Of a stretch of DNA of 64,000 nt, positions 5,248 to 63,479 are shown piece after piece. The DNA comes from Lewinella sp. 4G2. GTDB taxonomy: Bacteria; Bacteroidota; Bacteroidia; Chitinophagales; Saprospiraceae. The DNA is taken from NCBI RefSeq assembly GCF_001625015.1, contig NZ_LVWJ02000014.1:2852001-2916000 (forward strand), in the 5' to 3' direction. The notes beneath the pieces are model-generated. The model was given only the letters and a program-made list of their open reading frames with translations. It did no database searches and was not told the origin of the DNA. Each line of letters starts with the position of its first letter. Positions within the stretch are counted from its first letter, which is position 1. The position numbers and the translations under genes are program-made.

Positions 5248-7002
5248 ATGCACCCCCAAAAACTCCTCCTCCTCCCCCTAACCGCACTCTGTCTCTACCT
5301 CGCACCCGCGGCAGCGCAAAATTGTGAGCCTGGAACGACGAGTAACGATTCCCTGAAAAATAACCATCTGGAAATTACCGTAGGGCAAGCCGGGGAACTC
5401 TTCCCAACCGGCGAAAACGGTGGCTTTATCGTAAACCCTACGGCGGAAAACACCGTGCCCTACAACGTCATGAGCCGGGCGGGGCTCTGGATCGGGGCGC
5501 GGGACGCCGCTGGAGCATTACAAGTCTCGTCGGTAACCTACGGGCCATTCAACGATAACCGGAATTTCCAGCCAGGACCGGTGTACGATGACCCCACCCA
5601 GACCGCCGCAAATTGTGGCTTTTGGAATCGCCACTTTAAAGTGTCCCAGGATGAAATCACGGCCGTGCGCCGGTCCTTTTTGGCCGGGACGCTGCGACGC
5701 GAGGACGTCCCCACGAACATCCTCGGCTGGCCCGCTACCGAAAATCCGTACTTCGAAGAAACCTGGGGCGCCTCCCTGCCCGACGCAACGACCGGAATGG
5801 CGCCCTTCTATGATGAAGATCTGGACGGCATCTACGACCCCCTCGCCGGCGACTACCCGGATTTCTGCGGTGGCCAGGCCCTCTACAGCGTCTTCAACGA
5901 CATGACGCTGCGCACGGGAAATGATACTCCACCGCTGGGAATTGAGGTCCACCAACTCGTACGGATCACTGAGGGGCGGGACGATATTTTCGCGCAAACC
6001 GTACTGGTCGATTACTTGATTGTCAACAAGTCCCTGGAAACTAAACTTGACCTCCACGCCGGGCTCTGGATCGATCCCGACCTCGGCTGTTTTAATAACG
6101 ACCTGGCCAGCACCCTGCCCGCCGAAAACCTCCTCTACGTCTACAACGATTCCCCCGACGAAGGCACCAGCTGCCCCAGCGGCCTCACCCCCACGGGCGT
6201 AGATGCCCCGGCGCTGGTGGTAAAAATGCTTAGCGGATTCATCACGCCCGTTTTTGATGACGACGGTTTCCTCATTGGCGAAGAAGACCTTCAACTAACC
6301 TCACTCGCGGGCTACATCAGCGCCGCTTTCGGCAGCCCGCCGCCGGGAATGCTCCTCCTCAACACGCCGGAACGACAGTACAATGTCCTGCGCGGCAGCT
6401 GGCCCGACGGCTCATCCATCGGCCGCAGTGGCAACGGGTTCGATAACCAGGGCGCCCCCACCAGCTACCTGTACGACGGTGGCGACACCCCCGCGGGAAC
6501 CCCCTGGAAAGGCTGCGCCCCCAACGATTTTTTCCTCGACCACCGTTACCTCGCAGCTTCAGGGCCCACATTCGTGGAGCCCGGCGGCGTAAAAACCCTC
6601 TCCTTCGCCCTGGCGGTAACGAAAGGGGTAGAATACGCGAATGATTGCCCCGTGGAGGATCAAATCTTGGAGGTCTCCTCCGCCCTCGAAGGAATCGGAG
6701 AAGCCTTCCGTACCTGCGAACTCCCCGTCAGCACCAACACCGACGTCGTTTTGGCCAATACCAAACTCCGCGTCTTCCCCAACCCAACCCGCAACCGCCT
6801 CAACTTCGAACTCCCCCAAGACGAGAAAATAAAACGCCTCACCCTCTACACCGCCACCGGCCAACGACTAGTGACAAATGCACCCAGCGAAAACTTCCTA
6901 AGTATCGACCTCTCCACCCACCAACTCCCCGCCGGCCTCCTCATCTACCACCTCCAAACGGAAGGCGGCGAAGTAAAAACCGGCAAGGTGGTACTGCTAT
7001 GA
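5248..7002 (+). CDS. T9SS-sorted secreted protein
   Basis: 584 residues with a signal peptide (LLLLPLTALCLYLAPAAAQ) and a C-terminal type A T9SS sorting domain starting near VFPNPTRNRLNFELP and ending GKVVLL. The central region is shared with the truncated protein at the left edge, including EVHQLVRI, LDLHAGLWIDPDLGC and SYLYDGGDTPAGTPWKGC. The segment DEDLDGIYDPLAGDYPD looks like a calcium-binding Asp-rich loop. No enzyme fold was recognised. Copy 1 of the dispersed 17-base repeat (5302-5317) encodes APAAA within the signal peptide. A strong hairpin follows the stop codon at 7046-7090. Confidence 0.85.
   Translation: MHPQKLLLLPLTALCLYLAPAAAQNCEPGTTSNDSLKNNHLEITVGQAGELFPTGENGGFIVNPTAENTVPYNVMSRAGLWIGARDAAGALQVSSVTYGPFNDNRNFQPGPVYDDPTQTAANCGFWNRHFKVSQDEITAVRRSFLAGTLRREDVPTNILGWPATENPYFEETWGASLPDATTGMAPFYDEDLDGIYDPLAGDYPDFCGGQALYSVFNDMTLRTGNDTPPLGIEVHQLVRITEGRDDIFAQTVLVDYLIVNKSLETKLDLHAGLWIDPDLGCFNNDLASTLPAENLLYVYNDSPDEGTSCPSGLTPTGVDAPALVVKMLSGFITPVFDDDGFLIGEEDLQLTSLAGYISAAFGSPPPGMLLLNTPERQYNVLRGSWPDGSSIGRSGNGFDNQGAPTSYLYDGGDTPAGTPWKGCAPNDFFLDHRYLAASGPTFVEPGGVKTLSFALAVTKGVEYANDCPVEDQILEVSSALEGIGEAFRTCELPVSTNTDVVLANTKLRVFPNPTRNRLNFELPQDEKIKRLTLYTATGQRLVTNAPSENFLSIDLSTHQLPAGLLIYHLQTEGGEVKTGKVVLL
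5302..5317 (-). repeat. Dispersed 17-base repeat, copy 1 (16 of 17 bases)
   Basis: Reverse orientation of GGCGCTGCCGC(A/G)GGTGC, lacking one end base. It lies inside the signal peptide codons of the T9SS protein and is read APAAA (residues 19-23). Confidence 0.75.
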
Positions 7003-7045
7003 GGCGGTATTTGACACAAACGATCACGGTAGTGATCATCATGAT

Positions 7046-7090: not shown

Positions 7091-7155
7091 AAGATCCCAC
7101 GTCTTCCGGGCCAAGATCCCACGTCTAAAATCCAAAATCCAACCTCTAAAATCCC

Positions 7156-9333
<2,178 letters not shown>

Positions 9334-14724: not shown

Positions 14725-15639
14725 TCAGTACCGCCAGCAGAGAATCCTACGAACCTTCCCTCCCTGGCCGATAGGGATGATCTTGACGGTTTTGACCTTA
14801 GCCTTCCCCAACTGCTGCTTCGCGGCGTGGAGGTAGCCCTTCTTACTGACGAGGGTGGTGAACCAACCCACTTGCTTGCGAAACTGCCCGCTTTCAATGA
14901 TCATCCGCCGGAGGAAGGCGGGTTCGCCGCCGGGCGTCCACAACTCGTTGGGGTTGCCGCCGAAGTTGTAGCCGGTGGCTTCGTCTTCGCCCAGTTTTTC
15001 CCACTTGGTTTTGGCGGCGGAGGTGGCGCCCTGCTCGTCGGCAAAGAAGGGCGGGTTGCAGAGGGTGGCGGCGAAATAGTCATCCGCTCTCACTACATCC
15101 CGAAAGATTTGCTGCCGTTGCGGCTGCTTGCGGAGCTCGATCTTCCGCTGGAGCTTGGGGTTGAATTTTACGATGGCCCCGGCTACTTTGAGGGACTGGT
15201 CTTCAATGTCCGTACCGACAAAATTCCAGTTATACTCCTTGACGCCGAGGATGGGGTAGATGAGTGAGGCGCCCGTTCCGACGTCCAATATTGTCGGTTG
15301 TGACGAGTGGGGTCCTTGCTTTTTAGCCGGTCCCTTTTGCTTGTCCTTACTTGGCACCTGCGGCAGCGCCCCCTCAGTGAGTAAGTCGTTGATGGCGTGG
15401 ATGTAATCGAGGCGGCCGGGGACGCCGGGGCAGAGGCTGCCGGGTGGGAGATCCCAAAACTTAAGGCCGTAGTCGCGCAAAAGCAGGGCCCGGTTGAGGT
15501 GGCGTACGGCATCCGGGTGGGCGAAATCAAGGCTGACGTGGCCAGCGGGAGTGGTGACGAAGAAGTTTTTCAATTCCGGCACGATGCGGGCGAGGGCGGG
15601 GAAGTCGTGTTTGCCCTGGTAGCGGTTTTTGGGGTGCAT
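14725..15639 (-). CDS. rlmF: 23S rRNA A1618 N6-methyltransferase RlmF
   Basis: 304 residues from the ATG at 15639, which gives the family start MHPKNRYQGKHDFPAL; the open frame continues to 15690 but has no family sequence there. The SAM-binding motif is LDVGTGASLIYPILG and the adenine-methyltransferase catalytic motif is NPPFF. RlmF methylates A1618 of 23S rRNA. Between LLTE and TILDVGTG there is a low-complexity Lys/Gln/Ser-rich linker (about residues 89-115) that begins with ALPQV encoded by copy 2 of the dispersed repeat. The near-promoter box GACCTTTG lies at 15644-15651, four bases before the ATG. Confidence 0.93.
   Translation of the reverse strand: MHPKNRYQGKHDFPALARIVPELKNFFVTTPAGHVSLDFAHPDAVRHLNRALLLRDYGLKFWDLPPGSLCPGVPGRLDYIHAINDLLTEGALPQVPSKDKQKGPAKKQGPHSSQPTILDVGTGASLIYPILGVKEYNWNFVGTDIEDQSLKVAGAIVKFNPKLQRKIELRKQPQRQQIFRDVVRADDYFAATLCNPPFFADEQGATSAAKTKWEKLGEDEATGYNFGGNPNELWTPGGEPAFLRRMIIESGQFRKQVGWFTTLVSKKGYLHAAKQQLGKAKVKTVKIIPIGQGGKVRRILCWRY
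15354..15370 (-). repeat. Dispersed 17-base repeat, copy 2
   Basis: Full 17-base match, forward in the sense of rlmF. It is read ALPQV (residues 91-95) at the start of a low-complexity linker in the protein. Confidence 0.85.
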
Positions 15640-20836: not shown

Positions 20837-20853
20837 GGCGCTGCCGCAGGTGC
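20837..20853 (+). repeat. Dispersed 17-base repeat, copy 3
   Basis: Full match, intergenic after aroB. It shares AGAT before and a purine-rich tract after with copy 4. Confidence 0.9.
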
Positions 20854-23097: not shown

Positions 23098-24288
23098 CTA
23101 GAGGTTGACCCCGGCACGATAGATAACGGACTCCCGCAAAGCTCGCAGGGTGATCTTTTCGCCGGCGCCTACGAAGAGGGTACGGTGGTGCTCGTCCAAC
23201 GTAAAGGATCCATTCAGCTCCTGGGCTTCCCCCGTCATTAGGAGTAGCATACAGGGGCCCTGGGTGGCGTCCACGGTTACTTGCCCACCTGCGTGCACCT
23301 GCGACAGCGCCAAAGCGAAATCGGGAGCTGGGGTGGGGTAGACGGACCAGTCGTCACCCCCTGATTCCGGTAACAAAATGGCCGGCTCGACGGGATGGGT
23401 AAGCGTGTGTTTGAGTAACTCCGGCACGTCGATGTGCTTCGGCGTGAGGCCACCGCGGAGTACGTTGTCGGAGTTGGCCATGAGTTCCAGACAGGTGCCG
23501 CGGAGGTAGGCGTGGGGGATGCCGGCGTCTTGAAAAATGCCTTCACCGGGCTTGAGGTGGACGATGTTCATCCAGTAAATGCTGAAGATCCCGCGATCGT
23601 GGTTACCGTTTTTGGTGTAGGTGCGGAAGGCTTCTGCGGCCCAGTAGTTCGGGGAAGAAAGATCGCCTGGTGCTTCTTCTTGTAACGTGCCGAAGAGCGG
23701 TTGCAACCAATTATTGATCTGAACTTGGTCTGCTGCCATCACGTGGCGGTATAGCTGCTCGATCCCGCCCTGTTGTAGCTCGCCAGCCAAGGCGTCCCAC
23801 CCGGGAATAGTATTAAGTGTCTTTAGAATAGCAGCCTCACTACAGAAGCCGTGGAGCAGGTAAAAGTGGCTGATGGCTACGCCTAATTCTGGTTTGTGGT
23901 TGTCGTCGCGGTAATTACGGTTGGGTGCGTCGCGAGGAATTTCCCCCGCCGCTTCTTCGGCTGCAAAACCTTCCTCCGCGCCCTCCTTGTCGGGGTGCAC
24001 CTGAATGGACAGCATTTCAGCAACGTCGAGAATTTTGAATAGATACGGCAACTGATTAGCAAATTGACTGGCGACTTGCTGCCCAAGTAAATCCGCCGGA
24101 CTCATCGAAATAACCGTTGCGAGGTTCTTCCCGGAAGGGAGTGTTGCCGGTCCCTTAGCGTGCGTCCCCAGCCAGTACTCCGCCCAGGGTTGGCTAATCG
24201 CACCCTCTTGCTGTAGGAACTTGGGAATAAATTCCTCGCCGCCCCAGGCGTAGTGTTGAACCGTTCCGGTGATGGGGAAAACTGCCAT
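23098..24288 (-). CDS. manA: Mannose-6-phosphate isomerase, class I
   Basis: 396 residues. The type I cupin fold is seen in GTVQHYAWGGEEFIP at the start, the zinc-site segment LSIQVHPDKEGAEEG (Gln, His), NHKPELGVAIS (Glu) and DAGIPHAYLRGTCLELMANS (His). The enzyme interconverts mannose 6-phosphate and fructose 6-phosphate, feeding GDP-mannose and glycan synthesis or mannose use. It is a single-gene unit here, converging with the gene at 22626-23078. Confidence 0.93.
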   Translation of the reverse strand: MAVFPITGTVQHYAWGGEEFIPKFLQQEGAISQPWAEYWLGTHAKGPATLPSGKNLATVISMSPADLLGQQVASQFANQLPYLFKILDVAEMLSIQVHPDKEGAEEGFAAEEAAGEIPRDAPNRNYRDDNHKPELGVAISHFYLLHGFCSEAAILKTLNTIPGWDALAGELQQGGIEQLYRHVMAADQVQINNWLQPLFGTLQEEAPGDLSSPNYWAAEAFRTYTKNGNHDRGIFSIYWMNIVHLKPGEGIFQDAGIPHAYLRGTCLELMANSDNVLRGGLTPKHIDVPELLKHTLTHPVEPAILLPESGGDDWSVYPTPAPDFALALSQVHAGGQVTVDATQGPCMLLLMTGEAQELNGSFTLDEHHRTLFVGAGEKITLRALRESVIYRAGVNL

Positions 24289-28899: not shown

Positions 28900-28995
28900 A
28901 GTCCGCTGCCAGCCTTCCCGCTCATTTTGCGGTCACGGTTTCTGACGCAAAGCGGACTCGCGGACCTTTTCCAAGTATTCAGGTTCGACGCCCGT

Positions 28996-29025
28996 CTAAA
29001 ATCGAAAATCTAAAATCCAACGTCT
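28996..29025. repeat. TCTAAAATC short tandem motif
   Basis: GTCTAAAATCGAAAATC followed by TAAAATCCAACGTC. The same words occur at 7122-7155, after the T9SS gene. Copy 4 of the 17-base repeat follows directly. Confidence 0.5.
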
Positions 29026-29032
29026 GGAAGAT

Positions 29033-29049
29033 GGCGCTGCCGCAGGTGC
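29033..29049 (+). repeat. Dispersed 17-base repeat, copy 4
   Basis: Full match in the region between the divergent xylanase and lipoprotein genes. Its flanks resemble copy 3. Confidence 0.9.
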
Positions 29050-29106
29050 AAAGAAATTGGGGCCTAAAGGATCGGGCTTATCCGTGCGGACAATACTTTT
29101 ACGCGA

Positions 29107-30375
29107 ATGATCCGACCCATGTTCAAGTACACTTCCCCGCTTTTGCCGATCCTCGCCGTATTAATCCTTTCCCTCGTCGGTTGCAAAACGGACGATCAGG
29201 TTGGGGACGTCAGCTCGGGGACCAGTACCCAGGTTGCACCACCTACTCCCACAGCACCTGCGGCAGCGCCCATTCCGTATACCTTCGAACCGGGTATCCG
29301 CTTTGGCCGGATGGATTACTTCACCCGCCCCGAAGACCTGAATTTTCTCTACCCAAATAAGCTGATCAAGGCCAAGATTCACGTCGGTGAGGGGCAGTTT
29401 GTGGACGGATACCGCGTGCAGAGCGGACGGGAAACTGAATTTGAAGTGCTGCTGCCCAGTGAGGAAATGGGGCTGCCGACGATGTCCATCAAGGTTTTTC
29501 GGAAGGGCGGGCCGTGGAAATTCGCCGGCACCAACGTAGGTGTAGGCACACCCCTCGACGCGCTGATTGAAGCTAATGGCGACCACTTCGAATTCTCCGG
29601 TTGGGGCTGGGATTACGGTGGCGCCATCACGAATTGGAAGGGCGGAAACCTAACGGGATTACGTGGCTCGCTAATGTTCGAGCAGGAGATCCTGGAGCTG
29701 GATACCATCCCGGAAACGCTCTACGGAGACCATACCGTGAGTACGGCAGATGACCGCCTGTTCGGACTGGGCGTGCACCTGGAGGAGATCCAATTCACCT
29801 TCGATGACCCCGCTACCATCAAAGGAAGCCTGCTGAAAACCAAGGACAATAGCATCGTGCCCGGCGTCCGCCTGGGGGATATTTACGGAGGCACCACCGT
29901 TGCCGAATTCAAGGAAAAATTTGCCGGCGAATACGAAGTAGCCGACTTCGACGAACCCGGCGGTCTGGTACTAAAAGGCTACCGCGTCTACCCAAATACC
30001 GCCAACGAATTCCTGATCGCCTTCCCTGAGGAGAACCCCTACGAAGCAAAGGAACTCCGCATCCAACTGGAGCGCGCGGATAGCAACTGGAAGGTAGCGG
30101 GCACGAACGTGGGCGTCGGCAGCACCCTCGCCGAAGTGCAACTAGCCAACGGCAAACCCTTCGAACTGATGAGCTACAACTGGGAAAACGCCGGCGAAGT
30201 GATGGACTGGGACGGCGGCCACCTCAAAGGCACCTTCCTCTTCATCGGCGATGCCTTAACTGCAGACGGCAAGCGATTGGAGTACAATGAGGAAATGCAG
30301 ATCCTAAGTAATGATAGGAAACTACGGGAGTTGATGCCGGTGGTTAGTAAGATTGACCTATACCTGGCGGAGTGA
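29107..30375 (+). CDS. Lipoprotein with two repeated modules
   Basis: 422 residues; ATG at 29107, with an alternative at 29119. The signal ends in LVGC (lipid attachment). A Pro/Thr/Ala linker follows (about residues 40-57) and contains APAAAP, encoded by repeat copy 5. The rest holds two similar modules, each with a WK(F/V)AGTNVGVG(T/S)-L motif followed by ANG and a W-GG-L end (about residues 135-185 and 318-380). They look like internal duplication of one beta domain. No known family was recognised. A 27-bp hairpin starts five bases after the stop codon. Confidence 0.75.
   Translation: MIRPMFKYTSPLLPILAVLILSLVGCKTDDQVGDVSSGTSTQVAPPTPTAPAAAPIPYTFEPGIRFGRMDYFTRPEDLNFLYPNKLIKAKIHVGEGQFVDGYRVQSGRETEFEVLLPSEEMGLPTMSIKVFRKGGPWKFAGTNVGVGTPLDALIEANGDHFEFSGWGWDYGGAITNWKGGNLTGLRGSLMFEQEILELDTIPETLYGDHTVSTADDRLFGLGVHLEEIQFTFDDPATIKGSLLKTKDNSIVPGVRLGDIYGGTTVAEFKEKFAGEYEVADFDEPGGLVLKGYRVYPNTANEFLIAFPEENPYEAKELRIQLERADSNWKVAGTNVGVGSTLAEVQLANGKPFELMSYNWENAGEVMDWDGGHLKGTFLFIGDALTADGKRLEYNEEMQILSNDRKLRELMPVVSKIDLYLAE
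29254..29270 (-). repeat. Dispersed 17-base repeat, copy 5
   Basis: Full match in reverse orientation, in frame inside the lipoprotein linker, read APAAAP (residues 50-55). Confidence 0.85.
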
Positions 30376-34576: not shown

Positions 34577-34974
34577 GGGGTGGTTCCTTTTTTGGTGGAA
34601 CGGTGGGGTGGGGGTTTGGTTTTTTGGGAGGGTGGGTTTAGAAGTCATCGAAAGCCCAGGGTCTTCAGCCTTCGGCTTCGGGACCCTGGGTTTCGGGGGA
34701 CCCCTTCAGGGTCTAACGTTCTAAGTGTCATCGAAAGCCCAGGGTCTTCAGCCTTCGGCTTCGGGAACACGGGTTACGGTGACCTGTTCAGGGTCTAGCG
34801 CCGTAGGTGTCATCGAGTACCCAGGGTCTTCAGCCTTCGGCTTCGGGACCCTGGGTTTCGGGGGACCCCTTCAGGATCTAGCGTCCTAGGTGTCCTCGAA
34901 TACCCAGGGTCTTCAGCCTTCGGCTTCGGGACCCTGGGTTAAGGGGGACCCCTTCAGGGTCCTGTGTGCCCGTA
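34577..34974. other. 398-base non-coding region made mostly of repeats
   Basis: Bases 34577-34643 form the GC-rich upstream flank of the photolyase gene; the rest is the four-unit REP array described separately. No gene is present. Confidence 0.7.
34644..34974 (+). repeat. Four-unit REP-like array, 82-83 bp units
   Basis: Units begin at 34644, 34727, 34809 and 34892. Each starts GTC(A/C)TCGA and has one hairpin made of CCCAGGGTC and GACCCTGGG around an inner AGCC/GGCT, and a second of GACCC and GGGTC around CTTCA. Unit 2 carries several substitutions. The last unit ends at base 34974, directly against the stop codon of the RAYT gene. A further copy in inverted orientation lies on the other side of that gene. 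Confidence 0.9.
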
Positions 34975-35655: not shown

Positions 35656-38600
35656 ATGCGCTACCTCCTCCTCCTAGCCCTCCTCCTCGCCCAAATCCCC
35701 TTCCCCCAATCACTCGGCACCCGCGTCAGCGCCCAGGAACTGGAGGCGATGGCGAAAACCAGTTCCCTCCAATTCCGCAACATCGGACCCTTCCGCGGCG
35801 GGCGATCGTGTGCCGTGACGGGCGTGGCGGGCAAGCCGAACCTCTACTATTTCGGGGCAACCGGCGGCGGCGTTTGGAAGACCAAGGACGGTGGCCAGAC
35901 CTGGACGAACGTTTCCGACGGCTATTTCGGCGGCTCCGTCGGGGCGATCGCGGTGGCACCCAGCAACCCGAACGTACTCTACGTTGGGGGCGGGGAGAAG
36001 ACGGTGCGCGGAAACGTCAGCTACGGCTACGGAGTCTGGAAATCGATCGACGGGGGGAAATCGTGGCAACAAACGGGGCTCAACAACTCGCGCCACATCG
36101 GCCGCATCCGCGTGGACCGCAACGACCCGAACCTCGTCTACGCTGCCGTGATGGGCGACCTTTATAAAGACACCGAAGAACGCGGCGTTTACCGCTCCAA
36201 AGACGGTGGCCAGACCTGGGAACGCATTCTCTTTGCGGGCGCTGCCGCAGGTGCCGTGGATTTGGACATCGACGCCTCCAACCCGAGGATCCTCTTCGCT
36301 AGTACCTGGAAAATCCGCCGAACGCCGTACAGCCTCTCCAGCGGAGGTGAAGGGAGCGCCCTCTGGAAAAGTACGGACGGCGGCGACACCTGGCTGGATA
36401 TCTCCTCCGCAAAAGGACTGCCGAGCGGCACCTGGGGCATCAACGCCGTGGCCATCAGCCCCGTGGACGGCGAACGCGTCTACGCCATCATCGAAAACGA
36501 AAATGGCGGCGTTTTCGTGAGCAACGACGGCGGCGAAACCTGGGCCAAACGCAACGACGACCGCGCCCTCCGCCAACGCGCCTGGTACTACACCCGGATC
36601 TACGCCGACCCGGTGGACGTCGACGGCGTCTACGTCATGAACGTGAACTACCACTACAGCCTGGATGGCGGGCAGACCTTTGAATTCCACCGTGCGCCCC
36701 ACGGCGACCATCACGACCTCTGGATCGCCCCCGAAAACCCCGAACGGATGATCATCGGCGACGACGGCGGCGCCCAGGTGAGTTTCGACCGGGGCGAAAA
36801 CTGGTCGACCTACTACAACCAACCCACCTCCCAATTCTACCGGGTAACGACGGATAACCACTTCCCCTACCGCATCTACGGCGCGCAGCAGGACAACTCA
36901 ACCATCCGCATCCCGCACCGGACGGACGGCGGCACCATCGGAGAAGCCGACTGGGAAAGCACCGCCGGTGGGGAATCCGCCCACATCGCCCCGGATCCCA
37001 ATAATCCGGACGTCGTCTACGGCGGCAGCTACGACGGTTTCTTCACGCGCTACGACCACGCGACGGGCCAACGCCGCGCCATCAACGTGTGGCCGGATAA
37101 CCCGATGGGCCACGGTGCGGAAGGGATGAAATATCGCTTCCAGTGGAACTTCCCCATCTTTTTCGGGGCCGATGGTGAGACCTTATATACTACGAGCCAA
37201 CACGTCCACAAAAGCACGGACGAAGGGGAGACGTGGGAGATCATCAGCCCGGACCTCACCCGCAACGAAGCCGAAAAACTCGGCCCTTCCGGAGGCCCCA
37301 TTACGAAGGACAATACCTCCGTGGAATACTACGCGACCATCTTCGCCGCCACCGAAAGCCATCGCGAGCCCGGTTTGATGTGGGCGGCTTCGGACGACGG
37401 CCTCGTCCACGTGAAAACGCCCGGCAGCGCCGACGGTGAGTGGACGAACGTCACCCCACGCGACGCACCGAAGTACATCATGTGGAACTCCGTCGAAGTG
37501 GACGACGCTCGGGAGGGTGCCGTATTCCTCGCTGGCACCAGTTACAAATCAGGCGACTACACCCCTTACCTCTACCACCTGACGGATTCCGGCAAAAAGG
37601 CCAACCGGATCGACGCTGGCATCCCGCGTGATGAGTTTACCCGCGTCGTTCGTCAGTACCGCAAATCACCGAATATCCTTTTTGCGGGGACGGAAAAGGG
37701 CCTGCACATCAGCTACGATACCGGCCGCTCGTGGGAACCTTTTCAGCAAAACCTCCCCATCGTCCCCATTACTGATCTGACGATCAAAGACGACAACCTC
37801 ATTGTCGCTACCCAGGGTCGCGCCTTCTGGATTTTGGACGACCTGACGATACTAACGCAGTTGAAGGACGTTGCCGCCGACGCTGCCTTCCACCTCTTCC
37901 AACCCGCCGACGCCTGGCGGATGGGTGGCTCAACGCGCAGTAGCCGGACGTCCGGCCAGAACCACCCCGGTGGCGTCAACTTCCACCTCTGGCTTACGGA
38001 GGACACGGCCAAGGATACCAATGAATATTTCCTCCGCATTGAGCAGGGTGGGGAGGTCATCCGCGAGTGGACCACCACCGATAAGGATAACATGCTGGAG
38101 CTGAAGCCCGGTGGCCAGGTTGTTAACTGGGACCTTCGCTATCCCTCCGGTACCAAGGTGCCGGGGATGATCCTCTGGTGGGCGGGCACCGGCGGGCCGA
38201 TGGCGCTGCCCGGCGACTACGTGGCCACCTTTGGTACGGAGGGCAACGAGCAATCCCGCGAATTCACCGTCAAGGCAGACCCCCGCGTGACGGCGAGCGA
38301 GGCGGACCAACTGGCCCAGTTCAATTTCATGAAGGAGGTGCGGGATAAGGTCAGTGAGGCCCACCAGGCCATCATCGACTTGCGGGAGGTCCGCGACCAG
38401 ATCAAGACCTTTCAATCTCGCTTACCCGAAGATTCCGCGGAGGAGTTGAAGGCGTTCGGCAAGACCATCATCGAGGAGTTAACCGAGGTGGAGGAAACGC
38501 TGTACCAAACCAAAAACCGTTCCGGGCAGGATCCGCTCAATTATCCCATCCGGCTGACGAATAAACTTGCTCATTTGAATAGCCTCGTCGGCGTTGGTAC

Positions 38601-40304: not shown

Positions 40305-41822
40305 ATGTTATCAAGACTTACGCTAACAACTTTGCTTTGCCTTTTCACCCTTTCCTTCTTAAGTGCGCAGAGCGTCACCATGAACGAGCTCTACGGTGTG
40401 AACCTGCGCCAGAGCGGTGCCATCGACAATAACGGTACGGTAACCGGCTACTACTTTCTGACGGTCCGCCAGAAAGAGCGCCGCGTAAAAGGAAAGAAGA
40501 AACCTCAAATCACTAAGAATTATCACCTCGAGCTTTACGACGTCGATATGGCGAAAATTGGTGAGAAGGTAATCAGAGATAAGCCTGGCTTGGCGATTCG
40601 GCAGGTCGCCTACAACGGAACCTACCTGGCCGTCAAAATGGCTAACCACGTTGATGAACGTAAGTGGGTGGAACTCCTGGACGGAAGCGGCGAAACCGTT
40701 AATCGCGCTACGTTGAAATACAGCGCTTACGATGATCCTAAATTAGTCGCCAGTTTTGCAAATTATGGTTTCAAAGAGCTACATTCTATCCCGGGTGGTT
40801 TCGTCAACGTCGACGTCATGGCGGAGAAGAAGCTAGGCCGTAGTAAGTACGAGGTCAAGTTCATCTCGAACGAGAAGGAGGTAAAAGGTTGGACGAAACG
40901 GAGCTCCTCAAAAAGTAAGGACTACGAGTTCTCTACCTTCATTACGACAACCGATAGTCTAGCCATCTACAACGTATGGACGCGCCCGAACTTGCTTAGC
41001 CAGAAAATGGAGGGTGCCATTGCCGGTGTCCATTTAAGAACGGGCAAGCTAGTCTTCAAGCGCCAAGTAAAAGGTGATGAAAACACAGTTGCCTGGTCAT
41101 CTGGCCAAGTGGTTGATGACCAGATCATGATTACCGGCCATGACGTTGGCTCCAGCAATAAAATTTACACGGACTCGCCCAAGGGGCTGAATGCCGTATG
41201 GTTTGATCTAGAAGGGAAGCAAATCAACCAGAAGCGCCTGTCGATGGATGAAGTATTTCAGTTTACCAGCGCCTCAATCGGTGGAATTAAGGGTAAAAAC
41301 CTCTATATCCACGAAACAGCCATTGACGAAAAGGGCAATTTTATCATCGCCTGCGAATACTACAATAGCTTCAACGGTGGCCTCTCCGCTCTTGAAGGTT
41401 TGGTCATTGGCCTTGACGAAACCTTTAATCTTGAGGCCGTAGCGCTGGTTGAGAAGGGTAGGTCGCGAAACGGTGAAGGCATCGCAAGAACACTCTCGGG
41501 TGGTATTAGTCTTGGCCGGAAGGAAACTGTCGCTGCGATCGCGGCGGCTAACGGGGAGTTTGACCATGCGCTGCTGCACACGGAGGCGGGCGCGACAACC
41601 GTTGCCTACTTTGGTGGAAATAAGACCGTTCGTCAAGACGGCAACCTTTCGATTTTCGTCAACTTGGTGAAAGATGGCCAAATCAAGCAGGAGAAAATGT
41701 CTTTCAGCGCCAACACTGATTTTGTGCGCATCCTACCCGCTCGCCCCGGCTACATCGCGGTTGCCGAGTACGACAAAGACACTAAAAGCCTCAACGTCCG
41801 GGTAGAACGACTCAATTTCTGA
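40305..41822 (+). CDS. Secreted protein of unknown function
   Basis: 505 residues with a signal peptide ending LSAQ. The body is all-beta, with a basic segment near residues 45-65 (RQKERRVKGKKKPQ). It is similar in style and size to the protein at 2768-4315, but no family was recognised. It lies 15 nt after the M48 gene, so co-transcription is probable. A strong terminator follows at 41843-41895. Confidence 0.7.
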   Translation: MLSRLTLTTLLCLFTLSFLSAQSVTMNELYGVNLRQSGAIDNNGTVTGYYFLTVRQKERRVKGKKKPQITKNYHLELYDVDMAKIGEKVIRDKPGLAIRQVAYNGTYLAVKMANHVDERKWVELLDGSGETVNRATLKYSAYDDPKLVASFANYGFKELHSIPGGFVNVDVMAEKKLGRSKYEVKFISNEKEVKGWTKRSSSKSKDYEFSTFITTTDSLAIYNVWTRPNLLSQKMEGAIAGVHLRTGKLVFKRQVKGDENTVAWSSGQVVDDQIMITGHDVGSSNKIYTDSPKGLNAVWFDLEGKQINQKRLSMDEVFQFTSASIGGIKGKNLYIHETAIDEKGNFIIACEYYNSFNGGLSALEGLVIGLDETFNLEAVALVEKGRSRNGEGIARTLSGGISLGRKETVAAIAAANGEFDHALLHTEAGATTVAYFGGNKTVRQDGNLSIFVNLVKDGQIKQEKMSFSANTDFVRILPARPGYIAVAEYDKDTKSLNVRVERLNF

Positions 41823-41908: not shown

Positions 41909-41925
41909 GGCGCTGCCGCAGGTGC
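41909..41925 (+). repeat. Dispersed 17-base repeat, copy 7
   Basis: Full match starting four bases after the T-run of the terminator, intergenic. A purine-rich tract (GAATGAGGGGAAGG) follows. Confidence 0.9.
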
Positions 41926-46698: not shown

Positions 46699-46715
46699 GG
46701 CGCTGCCGCAGGTGC
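46699..46715 (+). repeat. Dispersed 17-base repeat, copy 8
   Basis: Full match, 20 bases after the stop of the small membrane protein, intergenic. Confidence 0.9.
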
Positions 46716-48001: not shown

Positions 48002-48208
48002 AAGACTACAGACTAAAAATCCCCGGCCGCTCCAGGAACCTCCCATTGTCGCTGCGCTCGGATGCGAGGCCACCTGGAGAACCTAAGTCGCGTGACTACA
48101 GACTAAAGACTAAAGACTATAGACTACAGACTGAAGACTACAGACTGAAGACTGAAGACTACAGACTACAGACTATAGACTCTAAACTCCAGACTACAGA
48201 CTAAAAAT
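48002..48208. repeat. Composite repeat, left of esterase gene
   Basis: A ~75-base module (48022-48098; GGCCGCTCCAGGAACC near its start, GCCACCTGGAGAA near its end) is followed by a ladder of short words such as GACTACA, GACTAAA, GACTGAA and GACTATA. A module of the same order occurs on the right side of the gene (48923-49085). Both are in direct orientation. Confidence 0.8.
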
Positions 48209-48922: not shown

Positions 48923-49085
48923 TCTACAGTCTTTAGTCTATAGTAGCACCACTACAGACTGTAGACCAACGAGGCCCGGCCGCTCCTGGAACCCTTCACT
49001 GCGCTACGCTTGGGTGAAGGGCCACCTGAAGAATCTAAAGTCCGATGACTGCAAACTACAGACTATAGACTACAGACTGTAGACT
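48923..49085. repeat. Composite repeat, right of esterase gene
   Basis: Mirrors the left region: short words AGTCTATAG, AGTCTACAG and CTACAGACTGTAGAC surround a module with CCGGCCGCTCCTGGAACCC and GGCCACCTGAAGAA. The left end begins within a few bases of the esterase stop codon and the right end touches the udk stop codon. Confidence 0.8.
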
Positions 49086-49698
49086 AAACAAGACTCTCCA
49101 CAAAAGCCCGAACCACCCGCAGCCCCATCCCAAAGTCCGTATTATTATTCACGATGATGTCCGCCTTCTCCTTGTAAGGGGATAGGTACTTTTCGTAAGC
49201 GGGCAGCACGTGGAATTCGTAGCGGTACAGGACGTCATCCAGTGGGTAATTCCGCTCTACCCGGTCGCGCTTGATGCGGCGGACGACTTTAAGGTTATCC
49301 TTGGCGTGGAGGAAGATCCGTAGGTCAATCATCTTCCGTAGTTTCTTGTAGTGGAAGACGAAGAGGCCTTCCACGATGATGACCGGGGCCGGCTTGAAGA
49401 CCAGCGTTTTCGGCTCAGCTACCTCATTATTAAAGACGTACTCCTGGCGGTGGACGGTCTTTCCTTCCATGAGCAGGGACAAATCCCGCACGAATTCCCG
49501 TTTGTAGATGGACCAGGGAATGTCGAAATTTTCGATCCCATTATCGTCCTTGCGCTGCAGGTGGATGGGCTTATAGTAGTCATCCATACTAAGGTAGCAG
49601 ACCTGATCCTCGTCCAGCCCTTCACGCAGTTGTTTGATGAAGGTGGTCTTGCCCGATCCGGACCCGCCGGTGATGCCAATGATGAAGGGTTTCTGCAT
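49084..49698 (-). CDS. udk: Uridine kinase
   Basis: 204 residues. The P-loop GGSGSGKT (Gly11-Thr18), followed by SMDDYYK, EGLFVFH and FLHAKDNLKVVRRIKRD, is typical of Udk. It phosphorylates uridine and cytidine in pyrimidine salvage. A TACCTTAC box lies at 49704-49711, five bases before the start. Confidence 0.93.
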   Translation of the reverse strand: MQKPFIIGITGGSGSGKTTFIKQLREGLDEDQVCYLSMDDYYKPIHLQRKDDNGIENFDIPWSIYKREFVRDLSLLMEGKTVHRQEYVFNNEVAEPKTLVFKPAPVIIVEGLFVFHYKKLRKMIDLRIFLHAKDNLKVVRRIKRDRVERNYPLDDVLYRYEFHVLPAYEKYLSPYKEKADIIVNNNTDFGMGLRVVRAFVESLV

Positions 49699-49781: not shown

Positions 49782-49798
49782 GCACCCGCGGCAGCGCC
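49782..49798 (-). repeat. Dispersed 17-base repeat, copy 9
   Basis: Full match with the G variant at base 12, reverse orientation, between udk and smc. Confidence 0.88.
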
Positions 49799-49859
49799 CT
49801 AAATATTTAGTGCGTGCACACTTAACCCGAAATTCAGCGCGGATTTCCGGACCGCTAAT

Positions 49860-49867
49860 TACCTTCG
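49860..49867 (+). promoter_or_regulatory. TACCTTCG box upstream of smc
   Basis: Near-consensus -7 box, five bases before the smc ATG. The leader would be nearly absent. Confidence 0.4.
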
Positions 49868-49872
49868 CCGTC

Positions 49873-52800
49873 ATGCGCCTACGCCAGCTCGAAATCAAGG
49901 GGTTCAAGTCCTTCGCCAACCAGACGATCATCAACTTTGATAAGGACGTGATCGGGGTCGTGGGGCCGAATGGCTCGGGTAAATCGAATATCGTCGACGC
50001 AATCCGCTGGGTGCTCGGCGAGCAGAAGGGTAAGGAACTGCGCCTCGATAAGATGAGTTCCGTGATCTTCAACGGCACCAAAAAGAAGAAGGCCGGTAAC
50101 CTCGCCAGCGTAAGCCTGACCTTCGATAACGACAAAGGGCTGCTGCCCACGGAGTACGGCACGGTACAGATCACCCGGATGCTCTACCGCAATGGCGACA
50201 GTGAGTACCGCCTCAACGGCGTGCAGTGCCGGCTGAAGGATATCAGGTCCTTATTACTGGATACCGGGATCGGGTCCAACTCCTACGCGATCATTGCCCT
50301 GGGGATGGTGGACGATATCCTGGCCGACAAGGACAACTCCCGCCGCCGCATGTTCGAGCAGGCCGCCGGGGTGAGTAAGTACAAGCAGCGCAAGAAGGAG
50401 ACACTCAACAAACTCAAGAATACGGAGGGCGACCTGGATCGGGTAGAGGACTTGCTGCACGAGATCAACAATAACCTCGTCAGCCTCGAAAAGCAGGCCA
50501 AGCGGGCACGTCGCTACCTGGAGATCAAAGCCCAGTACAAATCCATTAGCCTGCAACTTACTCAGGCCCGGGTGGGTGCCCTGCGCAAACGCTTCGGAGA
50601 GCTGAAGGGGCAGATCACCACCGCCGAGGACGACTACCGCAACGTGGACGTAAAGATCCGCCAACTCGAAGCCACCCTTGAATCCGAGAAGGCCAAGCAC
50701 ATCGATAAGGAGAAGGCACTCGGTGAGCGCCAGAAGATGCTCAATGCCCTGGTCAATGAACTCCGCGGCCTGGAGAACGAGAAGAGATTGCTCGCCCAGC
50801 GCAAGACCTTCGTGAAGCAACAGAGCGAACAGTTGTACCGGGACATCAGCACGGCCGGTAATCAGTTGACGGATCTTTCGGAGCAGATCACCCGCATGCA
50901 AACCCAAATTGGGGAAGAGCGCGTCACGGAAGCCGAACGCAAGCAAGCACTTGATGCCGCCGAGGCCGCCCTAACGGAAATCCGTGAGGGCCACCAGTCC
51001 ATTAAGGGCCGCCTGGAAGAAGGGCTCAAAGAACAGCAGACCGAGGAACGCAAGATCTTCGAGTTCGAAAAGCAACGGGCCATCAAGGCCAACCAGATCG
51101 CCAACTACCGCAGCCAGATCGAACGCAACGAAGGAGAGATGGAAGGCCGCCGGGGCGAAAAGGAAAGCCTCGAAGCCGCCCTCGCCGAACTGGAGGCCGA
51201 AGAGAAAACCGCCCTCCAGGAATTGGAGCAACTCGAGCGCGCCGAAACCGAACGCCGGGAACAACTCGACCAGGCCCAGGAGGCCACCGACCGCCTGCAG
51301 CGCGAACAACAAAAGATCAACCGTAAGCTGGATCGCTTCCGCAACGAGTTTAAGCTCACTAAGAGCATGATCGATAGCCTGGAGGGCTTCCCCGAATCCA
51401 TCCGCTTCCTCAGCCAGAGCAAGAAGTGGAACTCGGAAGCGCAACTCCTCAGCGATCTGCTGCTGGTGGAAGAAGACTACCGCGTTGCGATCGAGAATTT
51501 CCTCGGGCCACTCCTGAACTACTACGTCGTAAACGATGCCGCCGAAGCGAAGGAAGCCATTGAATTGCTGACCAAGAGCCAGAAGGGAAAGGCCAACTTC
51601 TTCCTCCTCGACCAAATTCCCGCACGCAACGGCATCGACCCACCCGCGCCCGCCGGCACTCGCCTGGCCAGTGGGGTAGTAAGCGTGGACGCGAAGTACC
51701 GTATACTCATGGACATGCTCCTCGGCTACACGGTGATCTCCGAAAAAGACGAGTTCCCGGAAATGCCACCGGCCAGCGAGGCCCACTACGGCGTCATCAC
51801 CAAGAGCGGCCGCTTCCAGCACACGGGCATGTCCGTCAAGGGTGGTTCCGTAGGCCTGTTCGAAGGCAAAAAAATTGGCCGCAAGAAAAACCTGGAAGTA
51901 CTCGAAGGCCAGATCCAACAGGCTGAAACGGAACGCAAGGAGGTCGACAAGTCCTTATATAACGAACGCAACCGCCTCAACGAGCTGCGGCAACGCCGGG
52001 TGGATAAGGATATTCAGAACAAGCAGCGCGAACTCAGTCGCCTACAGCAAAAACGCGCCGGCCTCAAGGCACGGGTGGAAAGTTTCGCCAATTACTTCCT
52101 CGAAACCCAAACCAAGAACGAGCGGCTCGCCGAGCAAGTGAAGGCTACTACGGACGCCATCAAACTGCTGGAGGTAGACCTGACGGGGGCACAAACAGCC
52201 GTGGAAGCACTGCGCGAACAGCTGGCCGGGACGGATGGCAATTACCGCCAACTCAGTGAGCAGCTGACCGAAGCTTCGGGTGCCTACAACCAGCAGAACA
52301 TCGAGTACATCCGCCAGCAGAATAAGGTCCAGACGCTGGAGCAAGAAGTCCAGTTCCGCCAGAACCGCCTGCAGGAGCTAGGCCGCCAGGAAACCTCCAA
52401 CAAGGATCAACTGGAGAAACTCGCCAAAGAATCCCGACAATTCGAGGAGCAGGAGCAGACCATCGCCCGCAACCTCGAGCAGATGTACGCCAACCGAACG
52501 GACTACCAAACTACCCTGAATTCCGTCGAGCAGGAATACTTCGCTGCTCGCACCCACATCAATAACCTGGAAGACGAGCTTCGCCGGGAGAACCGCCGCC
52601 GGCAGGATGGACAGATTCTTGTCAACCAGCTAAAGGAAAAGTTCACGGACGTCAAGTTCAAGATCAACGGTATTGCCGAACGCCTCAAAATTGAATTCGA
52701 CCTGCAGCTGGAAGCCCTGAATGAGATGGACATCCCCGAGTGGGTAGGTTCGGAAGGTGACCTGGAATTGAAGGTAGATCGCCTCCGCTCCCGCATCGCT

Positions 52801-53433
52801 AACTACGGCGAGATCAACCCAATGGCCGTCGAGGCCTACGACGAAATGAAGGAGCGCCACGAGACTATTTCGGGGCAGCGCGACGACATTCTCAGCGCCA
52901 AACAGACCCTGATCAAAACGATCAAGGAGATCGAGGAGACGGCTACCGTCCAGTTTTTAGAGTCCTTTGAAAAGGTCCGCAATCACTTCATCGAGGTCTT
53001 CCGCAGCCTCTTCACGGAGGACGATAATTGTGACCTCATCCTCGAAACGCCGGAGGACCCGCTGGAGTCCAAGATCGAGATCATCGCCAAGCCCAAGGGC
53101 AAGCGGCCCACGACCATCAGCCAACTTTCTGGCGGGGAAAAGACGCTTACGGCCACGGCGCTACTCTTTGCGCTCTACCTCCTCAAGCCGGCGCCCTTCT
53201 GTATTTTCGACGAGGTGGACGCGCCGCTCGATGATGCCAATATTTCCAAATTCAACCGCATTATCAAGAAATTCTCGAAGGAGAGCCAGTTCATCATCGT
53301 CACTCACAACAAGCTCACGATGGAAGCCGTGGACACCATTTATGGCGTTTACACCAACGAGCAGCAGGGTAGTGGGGTGTTGCCCGTCCAGTTTACTGAG
53401 CTAGAGGGTAGTTCGGTTTTCTCCGCCGTCTAG
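49873..53433 (+). CDS. smc: Chromosome segregation protein SMC
   Basis: 1186 residues from the ATG at 49873 (MRLRQLEIKGFKSF); a frame opening at GTG 49810 adds unrelated residues. Walker A GPNGSGKS is at 31-38; long coiled coils flank a central hinge (about residues 510-690); the ABC signature LSGGEKTL begins at 1085 and Walker B FCIFDEVD is near 1109-1116. SMC forms the condensin that organises and separates chromosomes, with ScpAB, which are not nearby. A near-promoter box is five bases before the start. Confidence 0.96.
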   Translation: MRLRQLEIKGFKSFANQTIINFDKDVIGVVGPNGSGKSNIVDAIRWVLGEQKGKELRLDKMSSVIFNGTKKKKAGNLASVSLTFDNDKGLLPTEYGTVQITRMLYRNGDSEYRLNGVQCRLKDIRSLLLDTGIGSNSYAIIALGMVDDILADKDNSRRRMFEQAAGVSKYKQRKKETLNKLKNTEGDLDRVEDLLHEINNNLVSLEKQAKRARRYLEIKAQYKSISLQLTQARVGALRKRFGELKGQITTAEDDYRNVDVKIRQLEATLESEKAKHIDKEKALGERQKMLNALVNELRGLENEKRLLAQRKTFVKQQSEQLYRDISTAGNQLTDLSEQITRMQTQIGEERVTEAERKQALDAAEAALTEIREGHQSIKGRLEEGLKEQQTEERKIFEFEKQRAIKANQIANYRSQIERNEGEMEGRRGEKESLEAALAELEAEEKTALQELEQLERAETERREQLDQAQEATDRLQREQQKINRKLDRFRNEFKLTKSMIDSLEGFPESIRFLSQSKKWNSEAQLLSDLLLVEEDYRVAIENFLGPLLNYYVVNDAAEAKEAIELLTKSQKGKANFFLLDQIPARNGIDPPAPAGTRLASGVVSVDAKYRILMDMLLGYTVISEKDEFPEMPPASEAHYGVITKSGRFQHTGMSVKGGSVGLFEGKKIGRKKNLEVLEGQIQQAETERKEVDKSLYNERNRLNELRQRRVDKDIQNKQRELSRLQQKRAGLKARVESFANYFLETQTKNERLAEQVKATTDAIKLLEVDLTGAQTAVEALREQLAGTDGNYRQLSEQLTEASGAYNQQNIEYIRQQNKVQTLEQEVQFRQNRLQELGRQETSNKDQLEKLAKESRQFEEQEQTIARNLEQMYANRTDYQTTLNSVEQEYFAARTHINNLEDELRRENRRRQDGQILVNQLKEKFTDVKFKINGIAERLKIEFDLQLEALNEMDIPEWVGSEGDLELKVDRLRSRIANYGEINPMAVEAYDEMKERHETISGQRDDILSAKQTLIKTIKEIEETATVQFLESFEKVRNHFIEVFRSLFTEDDNCDLILETPEDPLESKIEIIAKPKGKRPTTISQLSGGEKTLTATALLFALYLLKPAPFCIFDEVDAPLDDANISKFNRIIKKFSKESQFIIVTHNKLTMEAVDTIYGVYTNEQQGSGVLPVQFTELEGSSVFSAV

Positions 53434-53456: not shown

Positions 53457-53473
53457 GGCGCTGCCGCGGGTGC
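53457..53473 (+). repeat. Dispersed 17-base repeat, copy 10
   Basis: Full match with the G variant at base 12, 24 bases after the smc stop, forward orientation. Confidence 0.88.
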
Positions 53474-61408: not shown

Positions 61409-62377
61409 ATGAATGCATCGAAAGTAATCATGGCGTTTTCCATCCTGCTTGCATTGGTGTCTAGCCATCGAGCGGGAGCGGAAGCTGCCTACGATTGGTC
61501 CCCCTATCAATATTTGCTCGCCGAACGCTATACGAGCCCTGAAGATTTGGCCTCGGAAGTAAGTGTCAGATTTGCGGGGGATGAAGAGCGTGCCGCGGCT
61601 TTATTTTATTGGGTGGCCAATAGTATTAGCTACGATACGAAGTTGATGAACCGCATCGCCGGGTCATCAATAAAAAGCTACACACTGGCAGAGATTGAAC
61701 GCTTGTATGAAGACCGGATTCAATACGCCTGGAAGAAGAGGAAAGGTGTGTGCGAAAATTATGCACGGCTCTACGAGCGCCTGGCAACCTTAGCCGGCCT
61801 GGAAGCGGTGATGATCAGCGGCCACGCCCGCGGAGACTATCTGACTGCAGGCATGATCGGAATAGGCCACGCCTGGAACAGAGTGAAAATAGATGGAAAA
61901 TGGCAACTGTTGGATGCCACCTGGGGTGCCGGCCACCTAAATGAAAACCTGCAGTTTGAGGCCGAATTTAAGCCACAGTATTTCCTTCCAGAACCGGTGA
62001 CGTTCAGCTATTCTCACTTTCCTGAAGATGCTAATGATCAACTGCTGGCTAACCCCGTCTCCAAAGTGACTTACCTCATGCGCCCGGCCGTCGGGGAAGG
62101 TTTCTTACGCTATGATATAACGGAGCTTAATCTCGATACGTACGCGATTGAGATTGGCCAGGGCAACCAGTTGACGATCTCCGGAATGGGTACGGACCTT
62201 CCGAGCCAATTCATTTTAGCTAACCTGTCCACGGGGTATCAAATTGGTGGAAGTACCGAAATTGCTGGGAATCAGTTCTCCATCACGATGTATGCTGAGG
62301 AAGTTGCGCCGATGAAACTGGGCGTTCTAAATCCTCGTGGTGAGATCGTGCTGGCCTACGAGCTTACCGTTCGGTAG
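61409..62377 (+). CDS. Secreted transglutaminase-like protein
   Basis: 322 residues with a signal peptide. The transglutaminase-like protease fold is seen with a Cys-His-Asp triad: Cys115 in KRKGVCENYARLY, His154 in GIGHAWNRVKI and Asp169 in WQLLDATWGAG. These proteins cleave or crosslink peptides; the C-terminal ~130 residues form a beta domain. The stop overlaps the end of the convergent glycosyltransferase gene by 14 bases. Confidence 0.85.
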   Translation: MNASKVIMAFSILLALVSSHRAGAEAAYDWSPYQYLLAERYTSPEDLASEVSVRFAGDEERAAALFYWVANSISYDTKLMNRIAGSSIKSYTLAEIERLYEDRIQYAWKKRKGVCENYARLYERLATLAGLEAVMISGHARGDYLTAGMIGIGHAWNRVKIDGKWQLLDATWGAGHLNENLQFEAEFKPQYFLPEPVTFSYSHFPEDANDQLLANPVSKVTYLMRPAVGEGFLRYDITELNLDTYAIEIGQGNQLTISGMGTDLPSQFILANLSTGYQIGGSTEIAGNQFSITMYAEEVAPMKLGVLNPRGEIVLAYELTVR

Positions 62378-63479
62378 CTCCGTCCAATGTTGAAAGGACA
62401 TCATTGAATCTACGGGCGTAATCCGCCCAACTGAAGCGGGCGGACCAGGCTGGGCCGGCTGCCGCCCTTTCCTTTACATGCTGACCGCCGACTAGTACTT
62501 CTTGCATTCGGTCCGTCAGCGCAGCGGTATCGTGGGTGGGGTAGTAGTAGGCCAATTCTCCGCCTACTTCTGGAAGGCTGCTGTTGTCCGGACAGATAAC
62601 GTTGGTGCCGCACGAAAGGGCCTCAAGAATGGGAAAACCGAAACCTTCGTAGATGGAGGGATAGACCAACGCTTCCGCGTGGGAATAGGCTTGCAGTAAA
62701 TGGTCCTTGCTGACGTACCCCGTTACGATGATATCGTTCCGGTAAGGGTGATCCTTTAAGGCTTGGTCCAAAAGCTCATTCTTCCATCCTTTGCCCCCTA
62801 CCAAAACACACTGCACCTGCGGCAGCGCCCGCTTTCTTAATTGCGTGAATGCTTGGAGTAAGAGGACGAGATTCTTCCGTGGTTCCAGTGTGCCAACGTA
62901 GAGGAAATAGGGTTTGGTGATTTTGTATTCGGAAAGGAAATCGCGGTCCGTGACCGGCTGGAAGGATTCATTGCGGCCCAGCAATATAGTCTGGATTTTA
63001 CCTTGGGTAAAAGGGTAGTATTGTTCTACATCCCGCTGCGTGTTGAGCGAATTACTGATGATTAGATCGGCCCGTTGAAGGATGCGGTTAAGAAACAGCC
63101 GCTGTAATTGTTGGCTGTGCCACCGGTGAAATTGGGGGAAAAGGATGGGCGTCAGGTCGTGGATCATGGTGATCCGCTTAACGCTTTTTGGTAAGTTGAA
63201 GGGGCCAAAGTGGGCCGGCTCAAATACTGCGTCCACTTTAAGCCGGCGCAGAATGCGGGGAATAATGAAGAATAAACGCGCCGAAGCGTAACCTATTGGA
63301 AGGCGAATATTCTTCACGGCTACCTGTCGGAGCGATAGGTTCGGGTCCACCTTCTCTCGAATAAGGATGTATTCGTGCTCGCCGGGATTGGCCGCCAATG
63401 CCCGAACCAACTCCCGTACGTAGACGTGGACACCGGCGTTCTGATTATCCAGCGGATCCGCAATGATCGCCACCCTCAT
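62364..63479 (-). CDS. Glycosyltransferase family 4 (GT-B)
   Basis: 371 residues from the ATG at 63479 (MRVAIIADPLDNQNAGVHVYV); the longer frame to 63575 lies within the upstream gene. The GT-B fold is shown by YVGTLEPRKNLVLLL, VLVGGKGWKN, EGFGFPILEALSCG and PDNSSLPEVGG. It transfers sugars from activated donors, probably in cell-surface polysaccharide synthesis. It overlaps the stop of the upstream gene (ATGA overlap), so the two are one operon. Copy 11 of the repeat encodes ALPQV (218-222) in a loop before VLVGGKGW. Confidence 0.9.
   Translation of the reverse strand: MRVAIIADPLDNQNAGVHVYVRELVRALAANPGEHEYILIREKVDPNLSLRQVAVKNIRLPIGYASARLFFIIPRILRRLKVDAVFEPAHFGPFNLPKSVKRITMIHDLTPILFPQFHRWHSQQLQRLFLNRILQRADLIISNSLNTQRDVEQYYPFTQGKIQTILLGRNESFQPVTDRDFLSEYKITKPYFLYVGTLEPRKNLVLLLQAFTQLRKRALPQVQCVLVGGKGWKNELLDQALKDHPYRNDIIVTGYVSKDHLLQAYSHAEALVYPSIYEGFGFPILEALSCGTNVICPDNSSLPEVGGELAYYYPTHDTAALTDRMQEVLVGGQHVKERAAAGPAWSARFSWADYARRFNDVLSTLDGATER
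62813..62829 (-). repeat. Dispersed 17-base repeat, copy 11
   Basis: Full match in the sense direction of the glycosyltransferase gene, read ALPQV in a loop. Confidence 0.85.

Follow-up and report, generated by a model that had tools for sequence, protein, structure and literature searches.

A 17-base word, GGCGCTGCCGCRGGTGC, recurs throughout the genome of Lewinella sp. 4G2 (G000; 5,213,657 bases), where it is probably a DNA uptake sequence (DUS). The word was first noticed in a stretch of 64,000 nucleotides of this genome (C14:2852001-2916000, i.e., part of contig C14; hereafter the window). Our reading is based on the match between the motif and the traits of DUS and uptake signal sequences (USS) as these are described in PMC3630211, PMC1626085, PMC1939737, and PMC7811141. 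The traits that the motif appears to share with those systems are balanced strands, an even spread, a preference for non-coding DNA, and a core followed by a 3' tail, together with species-specific versions, the presence of two versions in one genome, inverted pairs, and retention between closely related species.

Genome-wide occurrence and extent of the motif

The original prediction reported 11 copies of the word in the window, more than expected by chance, and proposed a genome-wide count, holding that a count no higher than in shuffled sequence, or copies explained by a shared protein motif, would speak against its significance. All 11 copies were found at their reported positions, and ten match GGCGCTGCCGCRGGTGC exactly; the remaining copy, at 5302, had been described as lacking an end base and instead carries a substitution, T for G at base 1. 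With up to 3 mismatches allowed, the window contains 14 sites, compared with a mean of 0.45 and a maximum of 2 in 100 dinucleotide-preserving shuffles. The genome as a whole contains 614 exact copies, 305 forward and 309 reverse, far above shuffles and against 0 for a reversed-pattern control. The shuffles and this control rule out an artefact of composition. An apparent strand bias on contig C14 was also discarded as an artefact of listing; copies lie on both strands in the stretches sampled.

The 17-mer is the core of an asymmetric motif of about 38 bp with a purine-rich tail, and no longer body is common to its sites. The logo built from 65 exact sites (464 kb) extends beyond the core with G at position 0 (77%), purines at positions 19-20, G at position 21 (92%), AA at 23-24, and GGG at 26-28, with a weaker purine bias reaching to about position 38. 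At position 12, these sites have either A (68%) or G (32%), and 29 of the 38 single-mismatch copies deviate at position 8. The purine-rich tract that had been remarked on in the window is thus present 3' of the core across the genome. As a single strand, the core could form a weak fold-back of 5-7 bp (five window sites), and the folding of these five sites is no more stable than that of shuffles (z from -1.85 to 1.14). Scans of the window against Rfam and for tRNAs retrieved no match.

Spacing, orientation, and gene context

Statistics on spacing and context were drawn from 862,648 of the 5,213,657 bases of the 4G2 genome; for spacing, a site could have one mismatch and, in addition, any base at position 8. 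The sites are evenly spread, with 42 full 20-kb intervals holding a mean of 4.64 sites at a variance-to-mean ratio of 0.24 (lower-tail P 1.3e-7). For 88 sites on contig C11, the coefficient of variation of the gaps is 0.73, compared with 0.985 under random placement (P 0.0014). Gaps shorter than 300 bp on this contig number 8, with about 5.6 expected, and the sites of all eight of these close pairs are oppositely oriented, an arrangement also known for Neisserial DUS according to PMC3630211. Of 20 separate stretches of 20 kb, 19 have copies on both strands, and no regional bias is seen in the sampled parts.

These results bear on what is the main rival to the uptake reading, namely that the motif is bound inside the cell by a protein that organises the chromosome or maintains DNA, with a specificity that drifts from species to species. 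PMC1939737 describes uptake sequences as less evenly spaced than would be expected of chromosome-compacting sites, and the strong evenness seen here therefore also suits an organiser, as do the preference for intergenic DNA and the long asymmetric logo, which would be fitting for an architectural protein. However, the balance of the two strands genome-wide and in nearly all sampled stretches, the many copies within genes, and the fact that congeneric species differ in the sequence of the motif, with one core being very different, all argue against such a protein, and we regard this explanation as unlikely. Sites of the matS, KOPS, Noc, and SlmA type are regional, oriented, or much fewer, which also counts against an organiser; a regional or replication-oriented distribution of that kind was not seen in the sampled stretches, where counts are uniform, the origin and terminus being unmapped. 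As such, the earlier suggestion of a chromosome-organising motif agrees with the spacing and disagrees with the strand balance and the lack of regional bias.

Gene context was assessed with a home-made gene caller, by which 83% of the sampled DNA is coding. Of 163 sampled sites, 78 are intergenic versus 27.6 expected, a 2.8-fold enrichment, and the other 85 are within genes (48 sense and 37 antisense). Known uptake sequences are likewise described in PMC1939737 and PMC7811141 as unbiased in orientation and overrepresented in non-coding DNA. For the window itself, the division into six intergenic and five coding copies that had been proposed is borne out by the gene calls, which give six and four for the ten exact copies and place the copy at 5302 in ORF 5248-7002. 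The peptides encoded across the genic sites are GAAAG-like (28), T(C/R)xSA (22), ALPQV-like (20), APAAA-like (13), and HLRQR (2), meaning that five of the six frame/strand combinations are used and only the sixth (RCRRC) is not. A shared protein motif as the cause of the coding copies is ruled out by this use of frames.

The same context makes it scarcely probable that the motif is a transcription terminator or other cis-regulatory signal, although the window copies at 20837, 41909, and 53457 do come after a stop codon. Such a signal would not be expected to have 85 of its 163 sampled copies within genes. In gaps between co-directional genes, 26 of 43 sites share the orientation of the genes and 17 have the opposite one, and 23 of the 43 are nearer to the upstream stop, so that a position shortly after a stop codon, as noted in the original prediction, does not hold as a rule. 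Convergent gaps contain 7 sites versus 23 in divergent gaps, in nearly equal amounts of DNA, and neither the Rfam scan nor the unremarkable stability of the five folded sites speaks for a terminator.

Copies at orthologous positions

The copy at 15354 is located in a loop of an RNA methyltransferase, after the peptide PGRLDYIH, and this gene was compared across 20 genomes. The motif is present at that spot in seven of them: G000, G005, G018, G019 (C at base 12), G015 (two bases longer), and G003 and G014, in both of which it is split by one extra base. Three genomes have the loop without the motif, and in the other ten the motif is missing and the loop is short or absent. The amino acids of the loop vary and the DNA word stays, which points to a constraint acting on the DNA.

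The closest named relatives of Lewinella sp. 4G2 belong to Neolewinella, and several of these allow sites to be followed between species. Between N. maritima and the metagenome-assembled genome (MAG) L060, all 7 of the 7 pattern-fitting sites in the SMC region aligned, with core identities of 0.88-1.00 and flanks at 0.62-0.80; control 17-mers had a mean of 0.77, with 10% at 0.94 or higher. This comparison left out a looser match at N. maritima 9158, which is without a counterpart in MAG L060. Between N. marina and N. litorea, two sites aligned, one identical and one at 0.82, and between N. maritima and N. aquimaris one of four aligned sites is kept, indicating turnover at greater distance. In a broader comparison of orthologous sites with and without the motif, 100 site-by-species comparisons across five species gave 45 alignments. 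The site is shared in 25 of these, 24 of them gap-free; among the 20 aligned orthologs that lack it, 8 are gap-free and 12 have gaps of 1-24 positions. Given the 24 shared gap-free pairs and the 8 gap-free orthologs without a site, some copies were likely born by substitution, and others may have been born by insertion.

The possibility of insertion relates to another suggestion of the original prediction, a tiny mobile or amplifying element resembling repetitive extragenic palindromic (REP) sequences or miniature inverted-repeat transposable elements (MITEs) and inserting its own copies. We give this explanation little credence because the sites have only a probabilistic logo in common and because most aligned pairs keep the site. 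The many dispersed copies, the close inverted pairs, the methyltransferase copy in a loop missing from some orthologs, the weak fold-back of the core, and the nearby gaps in 12 of the 20 site-less orthologs would all suit such an element, and the count of site-less orthologs that are gap-free (8 of 20) leaves it some ground. Nevertheless, nothing beyond the probabilistic tail is common to the copies, the shared sites are almost all gap-free, the gaps reveal no fixed unit, the spacing is more even than random, and the five folded sites do no better than shuffles.

Versions across the genus and beyond

For the contexts of the motif in relatives, 80-180 kb were sampled per genome. Exact copies of the core occur in 13 of 60 searched genomes, all of the same genus. 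With up to 2 mismatches, 18 of the 21 same-genus genomes exceed the control, and the exceptions, G001, G007, and G011, are accounted for by versions of their own that are evident from de novo words, such that some version is found in 21 of 21. Most of the same-genus versions vary just ahead of CGCRGGTGC, and GCGSCGGMGCGCRGG is the version used by two genomes. Related consensus strings are found in other species.

In G001 and G007, for which the consensus strings were derived from 7 and 8 sites, the word KGCGSCGGMGCGCRGGW occurs 429 and 388 times, respectively, with a control of 0. SD302 (G011) has a TTTTGGCTAACAAAGTAGCAATG-like word whose core, CTAACAAAGTAGCA, is present in 791 copies at up to 1 mismatch (control 5) and in at most 7 copies in any of the other 59 genomes. 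Two types coexist in genome G017: the first pattern matches 122 times at up to 2 mismatches, with a control of 18, and the second matches 111 times, with a control of 0. The word GGCGNNNNCGCRGGTGC is found in N. antarctica (782 copies), N. lacunae (1211), N. aurantiaca (1285), Lewinella sp. W8 (397), N. marina (346), N. litorea (352), N. maritima (494), N. aquimaris (399), N. persica (1425), N. agarilytica (986), and MAG L060 (755), with 6 copies in SD302, controls of 0-11, and none in L. cohaerens, F. nigricans, or M. maritimus. Together with the extended logo, which resembles that of a binding site, these differences between species make a protein-binding motif the best supported of the readings first offered for the word, among which an uptake sequence did not figure.

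Outside the genus, no word as strong as that of G006 was found in small samples of about 124 kb from L. cohaerens, 54 kb from F. nigricans, 160 kb from G022, 80 kb from G023, and 40 kb from G021. The best scores were those of GTCCAGGTCT in F. nigricans (6 places versus 0.21) and TTCTGCGCAATA in L. cohaerens (4 versus 0.04). Because these samples are small and the scores are near those of a true carrier, G009, in 100 kb, F. nigricans and L. cohaerens may have a word of their own.

Two other kinds of repeat were observed during the search for versions. In G002 (L173-L177), words ranging from GAGCCTCATCC to AGGATTAAGAC are found 56-58 times within 100 kb and may be a CRISPR array, and G017 has a dense array of TCGGCSGACGA repeats (L169:133-700).

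Competence genes and candidate receptors

On the uptake reading, DNA bearing the local version would be bound by a receptor at the cell surface and transferred to the competence machinery, and the imported single strands would enter via ComEC. DprA would then hand these strands to RecA, with recombination to follow. The biased uptake of motif-bearing fragments would multiply the motif in permissive places, a form of molecular drive. ComEC is encoded in Lewinella sp. 4G2 at C14:790378-791193 and is present in 37 of the 40 genomes searched. DprA is encoded on contig C19 of 4G2 and is present in 20 of the 21 same-genus genomes, the one in which it was not found, G010, being 55% complete. Both proteins provide weak support because they are present in genomes without the motif as well, ComEC in relatives and controls and DprA in 11 of 14 controls.

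A motor-driven type IV pilus is an unlikely receptor. Among at most 33 scored candidates per genome, PF00437, the family of type IV pilus and type II secretion system (T2SS) ATPases, is full-length in only 2 of 45 genomes, both of other families. No full-length PilB/PilT-type ATPase was found among these candidates in the 21 same-genus genomes, and pilins were not searched for; 20 of the 21 have partial matches to PF00437 at approximately 19-25 bits, 11 of them nominally above the cut-off, and G010 has no match. Since the pilus ATPase was tested for and not found, we do not place the motif in the pilus-based DUS/USS families, and it likely belongs to a new, DUS-like system that would be independent of the pilus motor.

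A different route of transformation is known from the Bacteroidota themselves. Riemerella anatipestifer transforms with ComEC, DprA, ComF, and RecA in combination with proteins unrelated to known machinery; according to PMC8459023, those required include a DUF5689 protein, an outer-membrane protein with a carboxypeptidase regulatory domain, an HHH protein, and a DUF1343 protein. DUF5689 (PF18942) is absent from 4G2 and from 20 of the 21 same-genus genomes, which indicates that the receptor in these 20 would not be the DUF5689 protein of the Riemerella pathway. The exception is SD302, in which the protein lies beside a barrel: at L236:5673-10601, a 933-aa TonB-plug-type protein precedes one of 695 aa that has three DUF5689 domains. 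This pair resembles neighbouring Riemerella uptake genes, and similar pairs were seen in G021, G022, and G024.

The Riemerella pair of DUF5689 protein and barrel was considered as the receptor of 4G2 and rejected, as DUF5689 was not found there and barrel matches were weak; in all 20 same-genus genomes other than SD302, barrel matches are weak and partial. Barrels of 934-959 aa in G005, G007, G017, and G019 were also set aside, since the neighbouring frames, of 547-573 aa, do not resemble the DUF5689 protein.

Comparison with known uptake systems

The motif resembles the DUS of Neisseriaceae, as presented in PMC3630211, in being one word in hundreds of copies without strand bias at intergenic or permissive sites, and in its inverted pairs, its versions by species group, and its occasional two versions per genome. 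It differs in phylum and in sequence, which are unrelated, as well as in its longer core, its purine-rich 3' tail, the lack of a detected full-length type IV pilus ATPase, and the density of exact copies. With the USS of Pasteurellaceae, as described in PMC1626085 and PMC7811141, the motif shares a core with conserved 3' flanking segments, an excess in non-coding DNA, and versions by subclade. The flank is purine-rich here and AT-rich there, however, and the receptor predicted for Pasteurellaceae in PMC12616744 is a minor pilin, whereas the pilus ATPase was not found in Neolewinella.

Within the Bacteroidota, Riemerella columbina, a sister species of R. anatipestifer, prefers its own DNA in transformation. 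The study that reports this (PMC7965970) also sought an uptake sequence in Riemerella and left the matter open, with words counted only up to 10 bases and yielding A/T-rich runs of unsettled role. Unlike Riemerella, the genus considered here has the DUF5689 protein only in SD302 among its 21 genomes.

Several points weigh against the uptake reading. At approximately 0.12 exact copies per kb, the motif is much sparser than USS and DUS, for which PMC1626085 gives roughly one per kb. The receptor search identified none, and G021 and G022 have the DUF5689 pair with no such word in 40 and 160 kb, respectively. Searches of the open-access literature yielded no uptake or transformation experiments for the genus, and no paper joining Lewinella and natural transformation. 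To these points are added the strong evenness that would also suit an organiser, the turnover seen with N. aquimaris, the ComEC and DprA of genomes without the motif, and the two signs of insertion, i.e., the gaps near site-less orthologs and the length-variable loop that holds the methyltransferase copy.

Nevertheless, we lean slightly toward a more specific form of the uptake reading, in which Neolewinella has a code for the uptake of self-DNA that evolved independently of those of Neisseriaceae and Pasteurellaceae and is read by a surface receptor other than a type IV pilus. At least four dialect groups of this code would have arisen by drift, and the SD302 lineage would have exchanged it entirely for another. 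The receptor may have changed there as well, SD302 being the only member of the genus with the pair of DUF5689 protein and TonB barrel.

Copies and neighbouring features in the window

The 14 window sites lie in varied surroundings. Three of them, absent from the original list, deviate only at base 8: one at 9274..9290 (+) with T, one at 23295..23311 (-), also with T, within a phosphomannose isomerase type I gene, and one at 35717..35733 (-) with A, and with G at base 12, near the start of a Sortilin-Vps10 gene (35656-38781). The same Sortilin-Vps10 gene contains an exact core at 36238..36254 (+). The copy with T for G at base 1, at 5302..5318 (-), is close to the start of ORF 5248-7002, and the exact core at 15354..15370 (-) is in the variable loop of the RNA methyltransferase gene discussed above (PF05971; 14725-15690, minus strand), which we take to be RlmF-like. 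Further exact cores are located directly past the stop of a 3-dehydroquinate synthase gene (20837..20853, +), downstream of a DUF6770 gene at 40305-41822 (41909..41925, +), in intergenic DNA (46699..46715, +), and within a glycosyltransferase gene at 62364-63575 (62813..62829, -). The SMC gene (49810-53433) is flanked by two exact cores with G at base 12, one immediately upstream (49782..49798, -) and one 24 bases past its stop (53457..53473, +); N. lacunae likewise has a copy directly downstream of its SMC gene.

An exact core between divergent genes (29033..29049, +) makes an inverted pair with the one at 29254..29270 (-), within ORF 29107-30375, which has no Pfam match. The DNA around the first of these (28983-29084) has matches of 54-79 bases (77-87%) to two stretches of contig C11, and therefore a short segment seems to be repeated; inverted pairs of sites separated by 223 bases are present in both C11 stretches as well. 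Other repeats in the window are (GACTACA)n heptad tandem repeats at 48004-48203 and 49055-49086 and a tandem array of an 83-base unit at 34644-34961 (3.8 copies, 86% matches). The word GACTACAGACT forms short arrays across the sampled genome, in 38 places in 862 kb.

Implications for the Bacteroidota

To our knowledge, DNA uptake sequences are confined to two families, Neisseriaceae and Pasteurellaceae, both Proteobacteria, and are tied to pilins in both. No established uptake sequence in Bacteroidota was found in the open-access literature searched. If our reading is true, the motif would add a third, unrelated case, and we are aware of no earlier tag system of this kind in Bacteroidota; self-recognition in bacterial transformation would have evolved repeatedly with different hardware. 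Approximately 20 genomes with several versions would then be at hand for finding the receptor and for testing whether the code isolates species, and adding the tag could let these bacteria take up DNA.

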